From: Pseudomonas taiwanensis
GTDB taxonomy: Bacteria; Pseudomonadota; Gammaproteobacteria; Pseudomonadales; Pseudomonadaceae
Direction: 5' to 3'
NCBI RefSeq assembly: GCF_013393345.1
Contig: NZ_QJRF01000077.1
Span: 35,129-99,128, forward strand
DNA length: 64,000 nt
This document shows, piece by piece, positions 46,221-64,000 of the stretch. Both the position numbers and the translations under genes were made by a program. Each line of letters starts with the position of its first letter. Position 1 is the stretch's first letter. Under the pieces are notes generated by a model. That model was not told the origin of the DNA. It searched no databases and saw only the letters and a program-made list of their open reading frames with translations.

Positions 46221-46904
46221 ATGAGCGCAAGCATTCTCGATGCGCGGAACCTTAGCAAAGTGGTTCCCAGCGCGGAAGGCGAGCTGACCATCCTGCACGA
46301 CCTCTCCTTCGACCTCGGCAAGGGCGACAGTCTGGCCATCGTCGGCAGCTCCGGGTCCGGCAAATCCACCCTCCTCGGCCTGCTCGCCGGGCTCGACCTG
46401 CCCAGCGCCGGCGAGGTGCACCTGGCAGGGCGCGCCCTGTCGAGCCTGGACGAAGACCAGCGGGCCCGGGTGCGCGCCGAGCATGTTGGCTTCGTCTTCC
46501 AGTCATTCCAGTTGCTGGACAACCTCAACGCCCTGGAAAACGTCATGCTGCCGCTGGAACTGGAAGGCAACCGCGATGCGCGCTCACGTGCTCGCCACCT
46601 GCTCGAACGGGTCGGACTGGGTCAGCGCCTCAGCCATTACCCGCGCCAGCTCTCCGGTGGTGAACAGCAACGCGTCGCCATTGCCCGCGCCTTTGCCGCC
46701 GAACCCGATGTGCTGTTCGCCGACGAGCCCACCGGCAACCTCGACAGCCACACCGGCGAGCGCATCAGCGATCTGCTGTTCCAACTCAACCAGGAGCGCG
46801 GCACCACCCTTGTGCTGGTGACGCACGACGAACGCCTCGCGCATCGCTGCCGCCGCCTTATCCGCCTCGAAGGCGGCCGCCTGGTCGAACAGGTGGAGCC
46901 CTGA
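46221..46904 (+). CDS. ABC transporter ATP-binding protein (YbbA-like)
   Basis: A 227-residue LolD/MacB-type ATPase: Walker A GSSGSGKST, signature LSGGEQQRVAIARA, Walker B VLFADEPTGNLD and the switch histidine in VLVTHDE. It pairs with the permease directly downstream, with which it overlaps by one base. The tesA / ybbA-ybbP divergent layout is also that of E. coli. The substrate is unknown; MacB-type systems act as mechanotransmitters rather than channels. Confidence 0.92.
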   Translation: MSASILDARNLSKVVPSAEGELTILHDLSFDLGKGDSLAIVGSSGSGKSTLLGLLAGLDLPSAGEVHLAGRALSSLDEDQRARVRAEHVGFVFQSFQLLDNLNALENVMLPLELEGNRDARSRARHLLERVGLGQRLSHYPRQLSGGEQQRVAIARAFAAEPDVLFADEPTGNLDSHTGERISDLLFQLNQERGTTLVLVTHDERLAHRCRRLIRLEGGRLVEQVEP

Positions 46905-49408
46905 TGCGACGCCTGCCACTCGCTCGCCTGCTGACGATGGCCGCCCGCCAACTGTGGCGCGATGCCCACAGCGGCGAATTGCGGGTGCTGTTCTTCTCCC
47001 TGCTGGTTGCCGTCGCCGCCAGCAGTGCGATCGGCTACTTCAGCGCCCGCCTGAATGGCGCCATGCTGCTGCGTGCCACGGAATTCCTCGGTGCCGATCT
47101 CCTGCTCAGCGGCTCGTCACCGGCCAGCGCCGGTCAAGTCGAAAGCGGCATCCGGCTGGGCCTGAAACATGCCAGCGCGGTGGAATTCTCCAGCGTTATC
47201 GCCACCGACAACGGTATCCAGCTCTCCAGCGTCAAGGCCGCCGACGCAGCCTATCCGCTGCGCGGCGAATTGAAGAGCGCCGCACAGCCCTATGGCGAGG
47301 AAACCACCGGTAGCGGCCCGAAAGCGGGCGAAGCCTGGGCAGAAGCGAGGCTGTTCGCAACGCTGAACCTCAAGCCCGGCGACAGTATCGATGTCGGGCA
47401 GAAAACCCTGCGCCTGACGCGCGTGCTCACCTATGAACCCGACCGTGCAGGTGACTTCTACAGTCTTACCCCACGGGTACTGATCAGCCTGGATGACCTC
47501 GATGCCACCGGCATCGTGCAACCCGGCAGCCGGGTGCGTTACCGGGAACTGTGGAGGGGTTCGAATGAAGCGCTGGCGCAATACCGGATGGAGGTTGAAC
47601 CCGGCCTGGCAGCGCACCAGCGCCTGGAAGATGCCAGGCAAGGCAACCGCCAGATCGGTGGCGCCCTTGGTCGCGCCGAGCGCTACCTGAACCTCGCCAG
47701 CCTCGCCGCCGTATTGCTCGCCGGTGTCGCCGTGGCGCTGTCTGCGGCCCGATTCGCCGCACGTCGTTACGACGCCAGCGCCCTGCTGCGTTGCCTTGGC
47801 CTGTCCCGCCGCGAAGCCCTCCTTCTATTTGGTCTGCAGCTGGCTCTGCTGGGGTTGCTTGCCAGTGCACTGGGCGCCCTGCTCGGCTGGCTGGCGCAGG
47901 TCGTGCTGTTCGAATTGCTGGGCGGACTCCTGCCTGCAGTAATTCCTGACGGCGGCCTGGTACCCGCGTTGGCCGGGATCGCCACCGGCCTGCTCGCCCT
48001 GGCCGGTTTCGCCCTGCCGCCGCTGGCCGCGCTAGGCCGGGTGCCACCCTTGCGCGTCCTGCGCCGCGATCTGCTACCGCTGCCACCAAGTGCCTGGCTT
48101 ATATATGGAGCGGCATTGCTGGCCCTCGGCCTGATCATGTGGCGACTGAGCCTGGACCTGAAATTGACGCTCGCCCTGCTCGGTGGCGGCCTGATCGCGG
48201 CCCTGCTGCTGGGCGGCCTGCTGCTGGCCGGATTGAAGGGACTGCGCAAGGCCCTGGCCAACGCCACCCTGCCCTGGCGACTCGGCCTTGGCCAACTGCT
48301 GCGCCACCCATTGGCGGCAGCCGGCCAGTCCCTCGCCTTTGGCCTGATTCTGCTGGCCATGGCGCTGATCGCATTGCTTCGGGGCGAACTGCTGGACACC
48401 TGGCAGAACCAGCTACCCGAGAACGCGCCCAACCATTTCGCCCTGAACGTGCTGCCGGCGGAGAAAGACGCCTTCGCCAGCCGCCTCGCCAGCCTGTCGC
48501 CACATCCTTCGCCGCTTTATCCGGTAGTGCCCGGCCGGCTCACGGCCATTAACGGAGAAGCGGTACGCCAACTGGTGAGCAAGGACTCCCAGGGCGAACG
48601 CGCCGTGCAGCGCGACCTCAGCCTGACCTGGTCCGCCGAGCTCCCCGGCGATAATCGCCTGGTAGCCGGGCACTGGTGGAGCGACCTGGACAAATCCGCC
48701 CTGCCGGGCGTTTCGGTCGAATCCAAACTTGCCGAAAGCCTTGGCCTCAAGCTGGGCGACAAGCTCAGCTTCAGCGTCGGTGGCCTGCAACGCGACGCCG
48801 AAGTGACCAGCCTGCGCGAGGTGGATTGGGACAACTTCCAGCCGAACTTCTACATGATCTTCGCGCCGGACACCCTGTCCGACCTTCCCGTCACCTATCT
48901 CACCAGCTTCTATCTGCCGCCACGCCATGACCGCGATCTGGTGGAACTGTCCCGTGCCTTCCCGGCGGTGACCCTGCTGCAGGTGGAAGCCATCCTCGCG
49001 CAGCTGCGCAGCATCCTCGCCCAGGTCACCCTGGCAGTGGAGTTCGTGCTGCTTTTCGTCCTCGCGGCCGGTATGGCCGTACTGTTCGCCGGGCTGCAAT
49101 CCACGCTGGACGAGCGCATCCGCCAAGGCGCCCTACTGCGCGCCTTGGGCGCCGAGCGCCAGTTGCTGCTGAAAGCCCGTCGTGCGGAGTTCGCCCTGCT
49201 CGGCGCCTGCAGCGGCCTGCTCGCTGCACTGGGCTGCGAACTGGTCAGCGCCCTGCTCTATCGCTTCGCCTTCGACCTGGATTGGCAACCCCATCCCTGG
49301 CTGCTCCTGCTGCCATTGCTAGGTGCCCTGCTCGTGGGTTCGGCAGGCGTGATGGGGACGCGTCGCGCGCTCAACGCCAGCCCACTGACGGTCCTGCGCG
49401 AAGCTTGA
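46904..49408 (+). CDS. FtsX-like ABC transporter permease (YbbP-like)
   Basis: An 834-residue permease with ten predicted membrane helices: one near residue 30, then a group at about 260-530 and a C-terminal group at about 700-830, with two large periplasmic domains. This is the YbbP layout (two FtsX domains), larger than LolC or MacB. It works with the ATPase upstream; a function in the envelope (lipid or lipoprotein-related) is inferred from family only. Confidence 0.92.
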
Positions 49409-49442: not shown

Positions 49443-49610
49443 ATGAGCCGTTATCGCCCGCCCCGCACCGCCGGAACCCCTCTGATCACCCCGGAAGGCG
49501 AGGCCCGACTGCGCGCCGAGCTTCATGAGCTTTGGCACGTACGCCGCCCCAAGGTCACGCAAGCCGTGAGTGAAGCGGCTGCCCAGGGCGACCGCTCCGA
49601 GAACGCCGAA
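49443..49610 (+). pseudogene. greB: Truncated resident greB, 56 codons left
   Basis: The opening [20 protein letters not shown] and the coiled-coil tip QGDRSENAE (Asp50, Glu53 aligned with the catalytic acids) are a normal GreB N-terminus. After codon 56 the reading becomes NELCPQGTY and stops at 49640, where the family expects YTYGKK and a further 100 or so residues. The RNA-polymerase-binding C-terminal domain is missing and I do not find it elsewhere in the window. The break at about 49611 marks the left edge of foreign DNA. Confidence 0.88.
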
Positions 49611-49701
49611 AATGAGTTGTGCCCCCAGGGCACATACTAAAAAGCGAAAAATTATTAATAATCAATATATTACAAATAGTACGCATACCAGAATCTTCGT
49701 A
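49611..49701. other. AT-rich left junction of the accessory insert
   Basis: Base composition falls sharply here: TTATTAATAATC and ATATATTAC-like runs replace GC-rich coding sequence. A small TGTGCCC...GGGCACA palindrome (49618-49635) sits next to the break and may be part of an attachment or element end. No integrase gene is seen in the window. Confidence 0.5.
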
Positions 49702-50175
49702 CTATTTCTCGTATTCGATGACGTTGATCCACCAGCAGGCTTCGCCGTGGGGCGTGCGCACGATGGCCTCATCACCCACTTCCTTCTTGAGAAGCGCCCT
49801 CGCCATTGGCGAGTCGATTGAGATGTAGTCCTTGCGACCGTAGATCTCGTCATAACCGACGATGCGGAACCGCTTCACCTCCCCCTCTTCATTTTCGATC
49901 TCCACCCAAGCGCCAAAAAAGACACGGCCTTCCTGCTCAGGGGCGTACTCGACGACCCGCATGTCTTCCAAGCGCTTGCGCAGGTAGCGAACACGGCGAT
50001 CTATCTCTCGCAGCAGCTTCTTGTTGTACTGGTAGTCCGCATTCTCACTGCGATCCCCAAGGGAGGCGGCCCAAGCCACCTTTTGGGTGATTTCCGGGCG
50101 ATAGACCCTCCACAGGTGATCCAACTCCCCTTTTAATGCTTCATGGCCTTGCTTCGTGATCAGATTCGTACTCAA
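49702..50175 (-). CDS. greB: Transcription elongation factor GreB, insert-borne
   Basis: A 157-residue complete GreB much closer to the enterobacterial form (LITKQGHEALKGELDHLW, SLGDRSENADYQYNKK, ISIDSPMARALLKKEVGD) than the truncated resident copy. Catalytic tip residues Asp41 and Glu44 are present and the C-terminal FKBP-like domain is intact. The start is a TTG at 50175, set by CACAGGAGCGTTCG and by family alignment. GreB rescues backtracked RNA polymerase by stimulating transcript cleavage. It may replace the gene it helped to destroy. Confidence 0.92.
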   Translation of the reverse strand: MSTNLITKQGHEALKGELDHLWRVYRPEITQKVAWAASLGDRSENADYQYNKKLLREIDRRVRYLRKRLEDMRVVEYAPEQEGRVFFGAWVEIENEEGEVKRFRIVGYDEIYGRKDYISIDSPMARALLKKEVGDEAIVRTPHGEACWWINVIEYEK

Positions 50176-50325
50176 ACGAACGCTCCTGTGACTGTTACCT
50201 ACTGACGCCACACCACTCTCTCCGGGCGGTTCTGAAGGAACACTGACGACAGGCCACCGATCGGCCAGCGCTCTCAGCCGCCCGGGCGATTTAGGTATGC
50301 CTCAACGTCAGCGCCCGACTGAAAT

Positions 50326-50613
50326 CTAGATACCCTCTACGCCCAGAGCCCTCAGGTCGCGCTTCAGGATGATCAGAAGGTCGTCGACTGGCATGCAGTC
50401 CTTAATCAAATAGCTGGCAGCCAAAAGGCTAACGGGGTGGATCTGCAGCGACCTGCTAAGGTCATCCAACTTTTCTAAAGTCGGTGATTGAAGCCCCCGC
50501 TCAAGGGCACTCAAGTAAGTTCTGCCGCTTACTTCTGAGAAATCTTCCTGGGTCTTGCCTGCAACCTTCCTCGCCTGCCGGAGGATGAGCCCGAATGCTG
50601 TGTTCAGTTCCAT
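50326..50613 (-). CDS. XRE-family helix-turn-helix regulator
   Basis: A 95-residue protein beginning MELNTAFGLILRQARKVAGKTQEDFSE, with a Cro/CI-type helix-turn-helix (about residues 8-62: SGRTYLSALERGLQSPTLEKL) and a short C-terminal dimerisation-like tail. It is divergent from the 145-residue unknown gene and its ATG lies 86 bases from that gene, with a perfect palindrome between; it probably represses one or both. Confidence 0.85.
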   Translation of the reverse strand: MELNTAFGLILRQARKVAGKTQEDFSEVSGRTYLSALERGLQSPTLEKLDDLSRSLQIHPVSLLAASYLIKDCMPVDDLLIILKRDLRALGVEGI

Positions 50614-50641
50614 TTGCCATATCCGCAAAAGGAACGATAAA

Positions 50642-50651
50642 GCGCTAGCGC
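50642..50651. promoter_or_regulatory. Candidate operator palindrome between XRE gene and divergent gene
   Basis: GCGCTAGCGC is a perfect 10-base palindrome flanked by TAAAG and CTTTA in inverted order (50637-50660), in the 86-base divergent region. TATGAT at 50671-50676 is a possible -10 element for the rightward gene. Confidence 0.5.
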
Positions 50652-50699
50652 ACACTTTAAGGCTACACGTTATGATGTGCATTTTAGGAGGAAGCCGAC

Positions 50700-51137
50700 A
50701 TGTTCATGACCTTCGAGCACGCAGAGATCCCCGTCGGCGCCCTCATCAAAGGCGGCCATTCCTGGCGATACGTCGAGTACCTCACGTCCTTTCCGTATTT
50801 CCATGTGGATGCACTCGATCGAGAAGAGGATTCGACCCGTCCCACTGTTTTGCTCATCTACAGCGTGTGTGATCTTCTCGAATTGGCAGCGGCCGGCCCC
50901 CATGGCTGGGACCTCAGGGAGGTTCAGTTGGTCAGCCCCGGACACATAAACGGTACCGGTCATTGGAAAATGGACGCTCTCGAGGCAATCTCAGTGTCAG
51001 ACCACGGCAAGCGGAAATGCTATGCCTACCACCTCGAATCGGGTGTTACGTACTACGAGAATGCCTATTCGGCGGGAGTTCCACGGGAGCAATGGCGAAC
51101 CGTCTATCCAGCCGTGGCTGACAACAAACTGGGCTAA
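50700..51137 (+). CDS. Hypothetical protein, 145 residues
   Basis: I do not recognise this protein. It starts after an excellent TTTTAGGAGGAAGCCGAC ribosome site and reads through a compact, soluble-looking sequence rich in His, Tyr and Trp, with an N-terminal strand-like part (ALIKGGHSWRYVEYLTS) and no membrane segment, signal peptide or repeat. Divergent from the XRE regulator. A regulated accessory function is plausible; no toxin or antitoxin fold is evident. Confidence 0.7.
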   Translation: MFMTFEHAEIPVGALIKGGHSWRYVEYLTSFPYFHVDALDREEDSTRPTVLLIYSVCDLLELAAAGPHGWDLREVQLVSPGHINGTGHWKMDALEAISVSDHGKRKCYAYHLESGVTYYENAYSAGVPREQWRTVYPAVADNKLG

Positions 51138-53148: not shown

Positions 53149-54828
53149 GGCCCAGACCGTGTAAAAACATTGGCATCGACCTTGCTGAGATTTGATGGAG
53201 TCAAACTCAGCAGGGCTAGCCATGAAGCGTTTCATCCAGGGAGAACATCGAGGCCAAAGCACACTGCTGCCCGAGAGCCTGGATGACTACGTCGCGGACA
53301 CCAATCCGGTGCGGGTGGTCGATGTGTTCGTCGATGAACTCGACCTCGGCCGACTCGGTTTTGACGGGGTTGTCCCCGCAGAAACCGGTCGGCCTGCCTA
53401 CCATCCTGCCGTCCTGCTGAAGATCTACATCTACGGCTACCTCAACCGCATCCAGTCCAGTCGCCGCCTCGAGCGCGAGGCACAACGCAACGTCGAGCTG
53501 ATGTGGCTGACCGGGCGCCTGATGCCGGACTTCAAGACCATCGCCAACTTCCGCAAGGACAACGGCAAAGCCATTCGCGGTGTCTGCCGACAGTTCGTTG
53601 TGCTGTGCCAGCAGCTCGGTCTGTTCGCCGAGGCGCTGGTGGCCATCGACGGCAGCAAGTTCAAGGCGGTCAACAATCGTGACCGCAACTTCACCAGCGC
53701 CAAGCTGCAACGGCGGATGGAGGAAATCGAATCCAGCATCAGCCGCTACCTAACCGCCCTGGACACTGCCGATCGGCAGGAGCCGACGGTGGCGCAGGCC
53801 AAGGCCGAACGCCTGCACAACAAGATCGCGGCGCTGAAAGCCAAGATGCAGGAACTCCAGGCCATCGAGACCCAGCTTGAGGCCACCCCAGACAAGCAGA
53901 TCTCCCTGACCGATCCCGATGCCCGTACGATGAAGACGCGCGGCAGCGGAATAGTTGGCTACAACGTGCAGGCGGCAGTCGATACGAAGCATCACCTGAT
54001 CGTGACGCACGCAGTCACCAACGACGGCGTCGACCGCGACCAACTGAGTGCCATGGCCACGCAGGCGCGGGAAGCCATGGGCGTCGAGGAACTCTCAGTG
54101 GTCGCCGACCGGGGCTATTTCAAGAGCGAGGAAATCCTCGCTTGCCACGAAGCTGGCATCACCGCTTTCGTGCCCAAGACGCTGACGTCGGGAGCAACAG
54201 CGGCCGGCCGCTTTGGCAAAGGTGATTTCATCTATGACGGAGCCAAGAACGAGTACCGCTGCCCGGCAGGGCAAAGCCTGACCTGGCGCTACTCAAGCGT
54301 CGAGAAAGGGCTGAAGATGCACCGTTACTGGAGTTCGAGCTGCCAAGGGTGTGCGTTGAAGGAGCACTGCACACCCAGTTCAGAGCGTCGGGTGAGTCGC
54401 TGGGAACATGAGTCAGTGCTCGACGCGATGCAGTCCCGCCTGGATCAGGCACCGGAGATGATGCGCATCCGCCGCCAGACGGTGGAGCACCCGTTCGGCA
54501 CGTTGAAGGCCTGGATGGGCGCCACTCATTTCCTCACCAAGACGCTCGACCGGGTGAGCACGGAAATGAGCCTGCATGTGCTCGCCTACAACTTCAAACG
54601 GGTGCTGAACCTGCTGGGCAATAGTGCGCTGATGGCGGCGATGAAGGCCTGAAACCCCTTTGGGCGGCCCGCTGAACTCGTCGCTCAGCATCGCGGAAGC
54701 GACAATTGCACCGAATCAGCCAAATGCCTCGGATCGACACGCCAGGCGCCCACAAGGCCGCTGGGCGCCGCTAAAACCATCCAAATCCAGCTATCCATCA
54801 CCCGCTTCGTTTTGACACGGCCTGGGCC
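53149..54828 (+). mobile_element. IS1182-family insertion sequence
   Basis: The transposase gene is bracketed by inverted ends: GGCCCAGACCGTGTAAAAAC (53149-53168) and GTTTTGACACGGCCTGGGCC (54809-54828), which match at 18 of 20 positions. Outer flanks also show weaker similarity, so the true ends may lie a few bases outside these limits. No target duplication could be fixed by reading. Confidence 0.75.
53222..54652 (+). CDS. IS1182-family transposase
   Basis: A 476-residue DDE transposase with the IS1182 opening (FIQGEHRGQSTLLPESLDDYV), AIDGSKFKAVN for the first Asp, VADRGYFKSEE for the second, and the C-terminal RRQTVEHPFGTLKAWMG containing the Glu. The N-terminal InsF-like helical domain, a central coiled coil and a CxxC zinc-like patch (SCQGCALKEHC) are intact. 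The element should be active if its ends are. Confidence 0.93.
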   Translation: MKRFIQGEHRGQSTLLPESLDDYVADTNPVRVVDVFVDELDLGRLGFDGVVPAETGRPAYHPAVLLKIYIYGYLNRIQSSRRLEREAQRNVELMWLTGRLMPDFKTIANFRKDNGKAIRGVCRQFVVLCQQLGLFAEALVAIDGSKFKAVNNRDRNFTSAKLQRRMEEIESSISRYLTALDTADRQEPTVAQAKAERLHNKIAALKAKMQELQAIETQLEATPDKQISLTDPDARTMKTRGSGIVGYNVQAAVDTKHHLIVTHAVTNDGVDRDQLSAMATQAREAMGVEELSVVADRGYFKSEEILACHEAGITAFVPKTLTSGATAAGRFGKGDFIYDGAKNEYRCPAGQSLTWRYSSVEKGLKMHRYWSSSCQGCALKEHCTPSSERRVSRWEHESVLDAMQSRLDQAPEMMRIRRQTVEHPFGTLKAWMGATHFLTKTLDRVSTEMSLHVLAYNFKRVLNLLGNSALMAAMKA

Positions 54829-55205: not shown

Positions 55206-55973
55206 TCAGTGCCCTTTCCATACAGGCACCCGCTTCTCCGCAAAAGCCAACGCCCCTTCAAGAGCATCAGCGCTGCTGAAAACCGTGGGGATCGACGCCT
55301 TCAGTGCCGGCCTTGTTGCTTCAACACCTTGCTGCGCGCACGACCACATCAGCCGCTTGGTCGTCAAAACCCCGAGCGGGCTATTGGATGCGATTCGCTG
55401 CGCCAGCTCCAACGCCGCTTCAAGCACCCTGGCAGGCTCTACCACGCGGTTGACCAGCCCGAGTTGAACAAGCTTGTCCGCTTCCATCAGCTCCCCTGTC
55501 AGCCCCAGCTCCAGAGCGATGGCCAAGGGAATTCGTGCAGGCAGCAGGACGCCACTGCCTGCCGGGAATAAACCGTACTTTACTTCCGGAAGCCCAAACT
55601 TTGCGTTGTTCGCCACCACTACCAGGTCACAAGCGAGGACCAGCTCGAAACCTCCTGCAACCGCCGTCGCATTGACCGCCGCAATTACGGGCTTGGAATA
55701 GCGCCCCTCCAGGAATGACTCGAAGCAGGAAGTCGATCGCGATCCCTGCATGGAAGGAGCCTCGGCAAAGGCTTTCAAGTCCATTCCAGCGCAGAAGGCC
55801 TTGTCACCGGCGGCGGACAGCACCACGACCCGAACCTCCTCGCTCGCCTCGACTTCCTCAAGGGCGCAGGACAGTTCCTCCATCAGCTCCGGGTTGAGGG
55901 CATTACGCTGCGCTGGTCGGTTAAGAGTCAGAATCTCGACGACACCTTCGCGGCGTCGCAGTAGAACGGACAT
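55206..55973 (-). CDS. Enoyl-CoA hydratase/isomerase family protein (crotonase 1)
   Basis: A 255-residue crotonase with oxyanion-hole segments AFCAGMDLKAF and VAGGFELVLACD, and KYGLFPAGSG where typical hydratases carry the second catalytic Glu (here PEVKYG supplies an acid). It should hydrate or isomerise an enoyl-CoA; the exact substrate is unknown. Third gene of a minus-strand operon with crotonase 2 and the SDR. Its stop abuts the truncated BPSL0761 copy. Confidence 0.88.
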   Translation of the reverse strand: MSVLLRRREGVVEILTLNRPAQRNALNPELMEELSCALEEVEASEEVRVVVLSAAGDKAFCAGMDLKAFAEAPSMQGSRSTSCFESFLEGRYSKPVIAAVNATAVAGGFELVLACDLVVVANNAKFGLPEVKYGLFPAGSGVLLPARIPLAIALELGLTGELMEADKLVQLGLVNRVVEPARVLEAALELAQRIASNSPLGVLTTKRLMWSCAQQGVEATRPALKASIPTVFSSADALEGALAFAEKRVPVWKGH

Positions 55974-63855: not shown

Positions 63856-64000
63856 TCAGCCGTAGACTTCGAACAGCCCGGCTGCGCCCATTCCGCCGCC
63901 CACGCACATGGTTACCACCACGTAGCGCACACCACGACGTCGGCCTTCCAGAAGCGCGCTGCCCACCAGGCGCGAACCGGTCATGCCGAAAGGATGACCA
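63856..64000 (-). CDS. Thiolase family protein, C-terminal end only
   Basis: The last 47 codons of a thiolase run off the right edge. The ending [18 protein letters not shown], followed by [19 protein letters not shown] and AAGLFEVYG, contains the HP-GMTG and final Cys/Gly (MCVGGGMG) active-site blocks of thiolases. It should cleave or form a beta-ketoacyl-CoA and fits the DUF35 and acyl-CoA dehydrogenase genes. Confidence 0.92.

Follow-up and report, generated by a model that had tools for sequence, protein, structure and literature searches.

Why would a bacterium carry a broken copy of a conserved gene with a complete, differently related version of the same gene right beside it? This question is raised by a stretch of 64,000 nucleotides from Pseudomonas taiwanensis, referred to below as the window, in which greB is interrupted and a second greB lies just beyond the break on the other strand. 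The first-pass annotation of the window proposed that foreign DNA starting at about position 49611 had cut the resident greB after codon 56, and that an element which replaces the gene it breaks could use a conserved target without harm.

The resident greB persists as a 5′ stub of codons 1–56 (49443..49610, plus strand), downstream of an ABC-transporter permease gene (46904..49408, plus strand) that flanks the greB site here and in related genomes. The open reading frame of the stub continues into the insert as far as a stop at 49638–49640 in the ORF listing, while the Pfam domain GreA_GreB_N is only partly present, covering model positions 2–44 of 71. A comparison with relatives agreed with the proposed break. 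The gene is intact and full-length in all 17 other genomes examined from the genus, and seven related greB loci align without interruption across the break site, so that the insertion into this otherwise conserved locus is precise. On the window's own contig, C70, the alignment leaps from C70:84737/84738 (window 49609/49610) to C70:236532/236534. The missing 3′ half of greB, which the first-pass annotation suggested looking for farther to the right, was therefore recovered on the same contig beyond the window, about 151.8 kb from the stub. The insert measures 151,793 bases if it is cut at 84739–236531, and it extends past the window to C70:236531, which would be window position 201403. The break at codon 56/57 falls inside the stretch coding for a conserved 10-residue motif.

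The second greB (49702..50211, minus strand) is complete, and its stop codon lies 91 bases inside the break. Its start is the GTG at 50211 or, more likely, a TTG near 50175. The encoded protein scores 255.5 bits against the GreB model TIGR01461 (cut-off 171). Both Pfam Gre domains are present and the acidic tip motif GDRSENADYQYNKK is kept in the alignment with E. coli GreB (2p4v), features from which the copy is predicted to be a GreB transcript-cleavage factor. A search of the contigs of this genome with GreA_GreB_N found three places, namely the stub, the greB of the insert and one on contig C21 that is taken to be greA; the greB of the insert is the sole intact greB of the genome. The two versions also belong to separate lineages, as had been supposed. 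In a 64-row GreB tree, which includes 7 of the 30 type-A residents and in which bootstrap values had yet to converge and several branches are long, the lineage of the resident (type A) is one side of a branch with 100/100 support, and the copy on the insert belongs to the E. coli-like lineage (type B).

The nature of the insert is indicated by three genes beside its far junction, outside the window. They are adjacent on the minus strand and form one operon: gmtX (C70:230100-230819), gmtZ (C70:230668-234705) and gmtY (C70:235061-236404), which score 190.8, 647.1 and 468.3 bits against the NCBIfam models NF040692, NF047926 and NF040693 (cut-offs 40, 600 and 340). As GmtY, GmtZ and GmtX each exceed the curated cut-off, the insert is a Gamma-Mobile-Trio (GMT) island. 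The Pfam domains Phage_integrase, Integrase_2 and INT_rpt are found across GmtY and GmtZ, with Integrase_2 and INT_rpt in GmtZ, and no Pfam domain was found in GmtX. A recombinase operon thus adjoins the far junction, where the first-pass annotation had advised searching for one. GMT islands were reportedly described by Mahata et al. in 2024; their operon of GmtY, GmtZ and GmtX beside one end is matched here, and related islands carry defence genes.

The left end of the island (49611..49701) was delimited by aligning 12 left ends. About six bases that vary are followed there by an inverted-repeat end (TTGTGCCCCC...CATACTA) and by inner repeats (AATAGTAcgcATACC...CGTACTATTT); the pattern AATAGTANNNATAC has a single occurrence in the genome, at this end. 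With the 12 left ends and 9 right ends set side by side, TAA immediately precedes the greB continuation TAC in 8 of the 9 right ends, and the left ends show an inverted copy after about six bases (best in G074, TTAAGAACCCC) followed by CATACTA-like repeats that are exact in 9 of 12. Inverted repeats resembling TTAGAACCCC are present at both ends, the left copy being imperfect in the window's own island. The six left-end bases read TACACC at locus L037 and TACCAG in genome G267, as in the target spacer of the host itself. In G244, where the element is sited elsewhere, they read TACACC, the spacer of type-A greB. These variable bases behave like a coupling sequence. Because the trio of G267 lies on the stub side, the island may insert in either orientation, judging from this one arrangement. 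The nine islands measured range from 18.8 to 151.8 kb.

Beyond the second greB lie a gene for a small helix-turn-helix protein (50326..50682, minus strand; Pfam HTH_3), recurrent on related islands, and, divergent from it, a gene for a 145-aa protein of unknown family (50700..51137, plus strand) with no Pfam or NCBIfam match. The pair occurs on five greB islands (window, G185, G126, G074 and G670; L166, L169, L174, L236) and is perhaps regulatory or toxin-antitoxin-like. An IS transposase (Pfam DUF772 / DDE) is encoded inside the island at 53192..54652 on the plus strand and is not its mover. ORFs and Pfam matches from 55206 to the window's end at 64000 (enoyl-CoA hydratase, acyl-CoA-type genes) mark the start of a large catabolic cargo. 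About 150 kb, from window position 55206 to approximately C70:220000, is mostly catabolic (acyl-CoA, CoA-ligase and dehydrogenase-like ORFs), unlike the defence cargo of the island's relatives. A PD-Lambda-1-like candidate defence protein is encoded beside the window's trio (C70:226959-228401; L125:2959-4401). On related greB islands, defence genes are close to the replacing greB (L007:114-4795, L075:598-3907); the greB island of S. stutzeri CLN100 carries PglZ and BrxL (BREX), and that of Pseudomonas sp. PSB18 carries PtuA and PtuB (Septu).

We searched 298 Pseudomonadaceae genomes with the full type-A GreB and followed up 20 by match number and score. At least nine of the 298, the window's genome being counted among them, have greB split at codon 56/57 (G000, G074, G085, G126, G185, G237, G254, G267 and G281). 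In line with the replacement idea, each of the nine has a second, intact greB on the side of the insert; both greB halves share one contig in six of them. In the per-genome table of all 298, no genome had a split-level best score without a better, complete greB. The greB of G145 lacks its first 29 codons (it starts at residue 30) and is accompanied by no second greB; its break point is different and perhaps no more than the edge of a contig. No GreB match was obtained for three of the 298 genomes, and a few had GreA-level matches only. Such a GreA-level match is all that was seen in G246, whose assembly is almost complete (80 contigs, contamination 5) and from which greB may be missing.

The same arrangement is found farther away. 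G409, which belongs to another gammaproteobacterial family and was found via GmtY, has a split greB, gmtYZX and an island of 18.8 kb, in which greB lies six bases after gmtX. A search seeded with the island greB gave further split loci in G665, G666, G667, G668 and G670, which do not amount to a test because they were found by carrying this type of greB. G669 shows a complete greB together with a 3′ half, but a 5′ stub was not seen. In G254, G267, G666 and G667 the interrupted resident gene is of type B, so the element takes either GreB lineage. Given this recurrence in other bacteria, there appears to be one family of mobile elements that, on landing, exchanges a conserved gene, greB, for a version of its own.

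These data also bear on the possibility that the two greBs are one resident gene rearranged by local duplication or by an assembly error. The draft assembly of 77 contigs would leave room for it, but the two copies are of different lineages, the same junction is present in independent genomes, including the single-contig assemblies G074 and G126, and both flanks lie on one contig here. We give this explanation practically no credence, and the break is not a sequence slip.

A GmtY above cut-off was present in 20 of the 298 genomes, at 21 loci, of which nine belong to the greB clade and twelve do not. In a GmtY tree of 30 rows (two of them identical plasmid proteins, and with the clade members lacking a usable GmtY, G281, G665, G666, G667 and G669, left out), the 15 greB-bearing rows, including G244, whose greB and GmtY are on different contigs, make up one side of a branch with 100/100 support. 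No greB was seen on the 15 other elements of this tree, nor in the stretches read around the twelve GmtY loci of other clades. Eleven of the genomes with such loci have one GreB besides GreA, and in the twelfth, G254, there is a greB island at another place; the one GreB of G052 resembles type B and is encoded on a different contig. In the other clades, where examined, gmtX is followed by VPA1267-type or unrelated genes. Carrying greB characterises a single GMT clade, which also targets the gene; neither behaviour was seen in the other GMT clades covered here.

The position of greB on the islands varies: at the left end, after gmtX, or 0.8–20 kb inside. It follows gmtX by 4–30 bases in G074, G085, G254, G409 and four plasmids, two from Pseudomonas and two from Halomonas (pAFM-PA19-3158, pNY8896-DIM, pTHAF12_a and pTHAF12_b), and by about 0.3 kb in G267, G666 and G667. 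It sits beside the left end, convergent with the stub, in the window, G185, G126 and G670, and in G244 as judged by the end motif; the greB of G254 is after gmtX and also near the left end. Elsewhere inside the island is where it lies in G237, G281, G665 and G668.

A relative of GmtY is present in 135 plasmid records; in the matches listed, identity above 39% was found only in the four greB plasmids, and no greB followed gmtX in five other such plasmids. The plasmid collection holds 25 GreB records, of which only those four are also among the GmtY matches listed; no GMT gene was found within 9 kb of the greB on an Acinetobacter cumulans plasmid. G254 and the P. aeruginosa plasmid pAFM-PA19-3158 have almost the same GmtY, and their element ends agree as far as the junction (L248, L177), which suggests recent movement between this plasmid and the G254 chromosome. 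On all four plasmids the element is sited outside greB. G244 has a clade GmtY at a non-greB site, an intact resident greB and an island-type greB on another contig. Because of G244, carriage of greB needs no broken greB at that moment, and the notion that the element carries greB only when it sits in greB is too strong, being ruled out by G244 and the plasmids.

It might be argued that the foreign greB is cargo captured by chance, with no role in tolerating the insertion, since its place on the island varies and since plasmids and G244, in which the target is not greB, have it too. Chance capture does not sit well with a second greB in nine of nine split genomes, with a single 100/100 GmtY branch parting the 15 rows with greB from the 15 without it, or with the joining of greB to the recombination operon in several elements. 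The island copies are all type B, yet they are scattered in the GreB tree, with six label changes of which at least three are forced by well-supported branches. Those of G254, G409, G074 and G085 stand apart from the Pseudomonas type-B group, and that of G000 is near G185 in an unresolved fork. Because of this scatter, the island greBs were acquired or exchanged more than once, which suggests that the gene has been regained or swapped and still kept. We consider chance capture quite unlikely.

The operon-like link to gmtX and the retention of greB on plasmids could also mean that the island GreB serves the element, for example in transcription through its genes or ends, and that landing in greB disposes of a competing homologue; a similar argument, interference between two divergent proteins, has been made for recA (PMC4405046). 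Against such a service role, other GMT clades manage without greB, and the copy retains the ordinary GreB motif and domains. This explanation, too, appears unlikely to us.

The breadth of the replacement behaviour can be narrowed as well. Replacement as a rule for all GMT islands was discarded, as it is not borne out by the stretches covered at four loci of another clade. In that clade (G224, G083, G186 and G222), GmtY is beside a truncated gene ending PVTNGCSWNS/KCTFCD, which we take to be radical-SAM-like, and the start of this PVTNGCSWN(S/K)CTFCD gene is the shared target in the four genomes (L219, L220, L221, L223). Within the 11.8–20 kb covered per locus, its last 40 residues did not turn up a second time. 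A class-wide GmtY search placed 3 of 369 genomes above cut-off, too few to survey GMT targets.

What happens when such an island decays? In the search seeded with the island greB, the permease is present at 72 of 80 loci, with the type-B greB convergent to it in 65 and codirectional in 7. Most of the convergent type-B greBs are bare, 13–142 bases from the permease, with no relic. In G264, the type-A stub survives in decayed form along with the foreign greB and an element end that can still be recognised; neither a greB 3′ half nor a GmtY above cut-off was found there. Locus L060 (Pseudomonas sp. GM48) retains the first codons of the stub with the target region, the same element end and the foreign greB, and the greB 3′ half was not found in this genome. 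As far as sequence can tell, these relics show that the element placed the foreign greB there, and these two genomes indicate that the replacement can become permanent. At L041, a 26-base match to the start of the gene is a weak sign only. A further relic may be present in G199, where the 3′ part of a type-B greB lies close to a complete type-B copy. Judged by best score alone, one large genus of the sample appears to comprise 56 type-A, 43 type-B and 4 split genomes. The two clear relics raise the prospect that type B may have spread through islands in general. The first-pass annotation held that its reading would suffer if the second GreB also occurred at this site in genomes without the insert. 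None of the 17 congeners has it there, but many other Pseudomonas do, as their only greB beside the permease, and two of these cases carry relics.

We believe it very probable that the GMT island of about 151.8 kb inserted at codon 56/57 of greB, inactivated the gene and supplies its own complete greB. In the proposed mechanism, site-specific integration of the tyrosine-recombinase type at codon 56/57, presumably performed by the gmtYZX trio, would inactivate the resident greB. As the island lineage carries a complete greB, the cell would be left with a GreB, the foreign one, and a conserved coding target would thereby become usable in many hosts. Later decay or imprecise loss of the island would leave the island greB as the only greB. 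The island copy is presumably expressed and would restore GreB function, which might be the reason for its being kept, and it would spare the host harm. As greB is dispensable in E. coli, the benefit of replacement is possibly small. A broader proposal is that this GMT clade is built to take over greB, carrying it as a fourth operon gene or adjacent to an end, breaking either lineage and leaving its copy on decay, and that part of today's Pseudomonas inherited their only greB in this way; here we find ourselves evenly divided.

Protective recoding of the target in the island greB, which would confer immunity, was also considered. In 17 of the 18 island greBs (G669 left out), the GCC Ala codon at the target site occurs in 2 of 17, versus 31 of 40 type-B residents (Fisher 5e-6). 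Measured against the 4.6 expected from each gene's codon use, the 2 of 17 gives P = 0.10, and this candidate was rejected as not significant against the genes' own codon use.

No paper linking greB to GMT was found among the open-access titles and abstracts searched, a scope outside which the main GMT paper falls. The closest precedent is the recA mobile element (RME) of Vibrio cholerae S24, a genomic island of 32.8 kb (Rapa et al. 2014, PMC4405046). Like the greB island, the RME interrupts a conserved gene at one site and has a complete divergent copy of the target gene near one end, a phage-type integrase near the other and inverted repeats at its ends; its excision as a circle and its targeting have been demonstrated, and either orientation is possible (PMC4405046). 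Its target is recA and not greB, it was described from one element, and the portion of that account used here gives no clade-wide rule, operon linkage or relics, unlike the greB elements (PMC4405046). New with respect to the RME are the second target gene, the dedicated GMT clade, the operon linkage, the hits on both GreB lineages, the plasmid copies and the relics.

GInts have several tyrosine-recombinase genes at one end, in a ginABCD operon (Bardaji et al. 2017, PMC5385486). They share with the greB island the multi-recombinase end, the short AT-rich other end and site-specific insertion, but in the part of the source used here survival of their target is suggested to come from insertion near a gene end or from an outward promoter, whereas the greB island brings a replacement copy (PMC5385486). 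The trio of the greB island meets the GMT models, while GInts have ginABCD. SEs, with the core genes IntA, Tfp, IntB and Srap, resemble the greB island in having several recombination genes and site specificity. Their 6-bp footprint is comparable to the approximately six variable left-end bases, the sole likeness at the junction, and a replacement gene, unlike in the greB island, is not mentioned in what we drew from the SE source.

Mobile elements usually avoid harm by inserting in tRNA genes, at the ends of genes or between genes. The element described here repeatedly interrupts a conserved gene at its middle and supplies a substitute, which turns "replace what you break" from a single curiosity into a testable strategy of a family of elements. 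The GmtY of the greB clade is a simple genomic flag for islands with phage defence, catabolic and other cargo. Replacement of this kind would also explain how one lineage can acquire, at the native locus, the core transcription factor of another, and it is a warning that greB, as well as recA, can be misleading as a marker of vertical descent.
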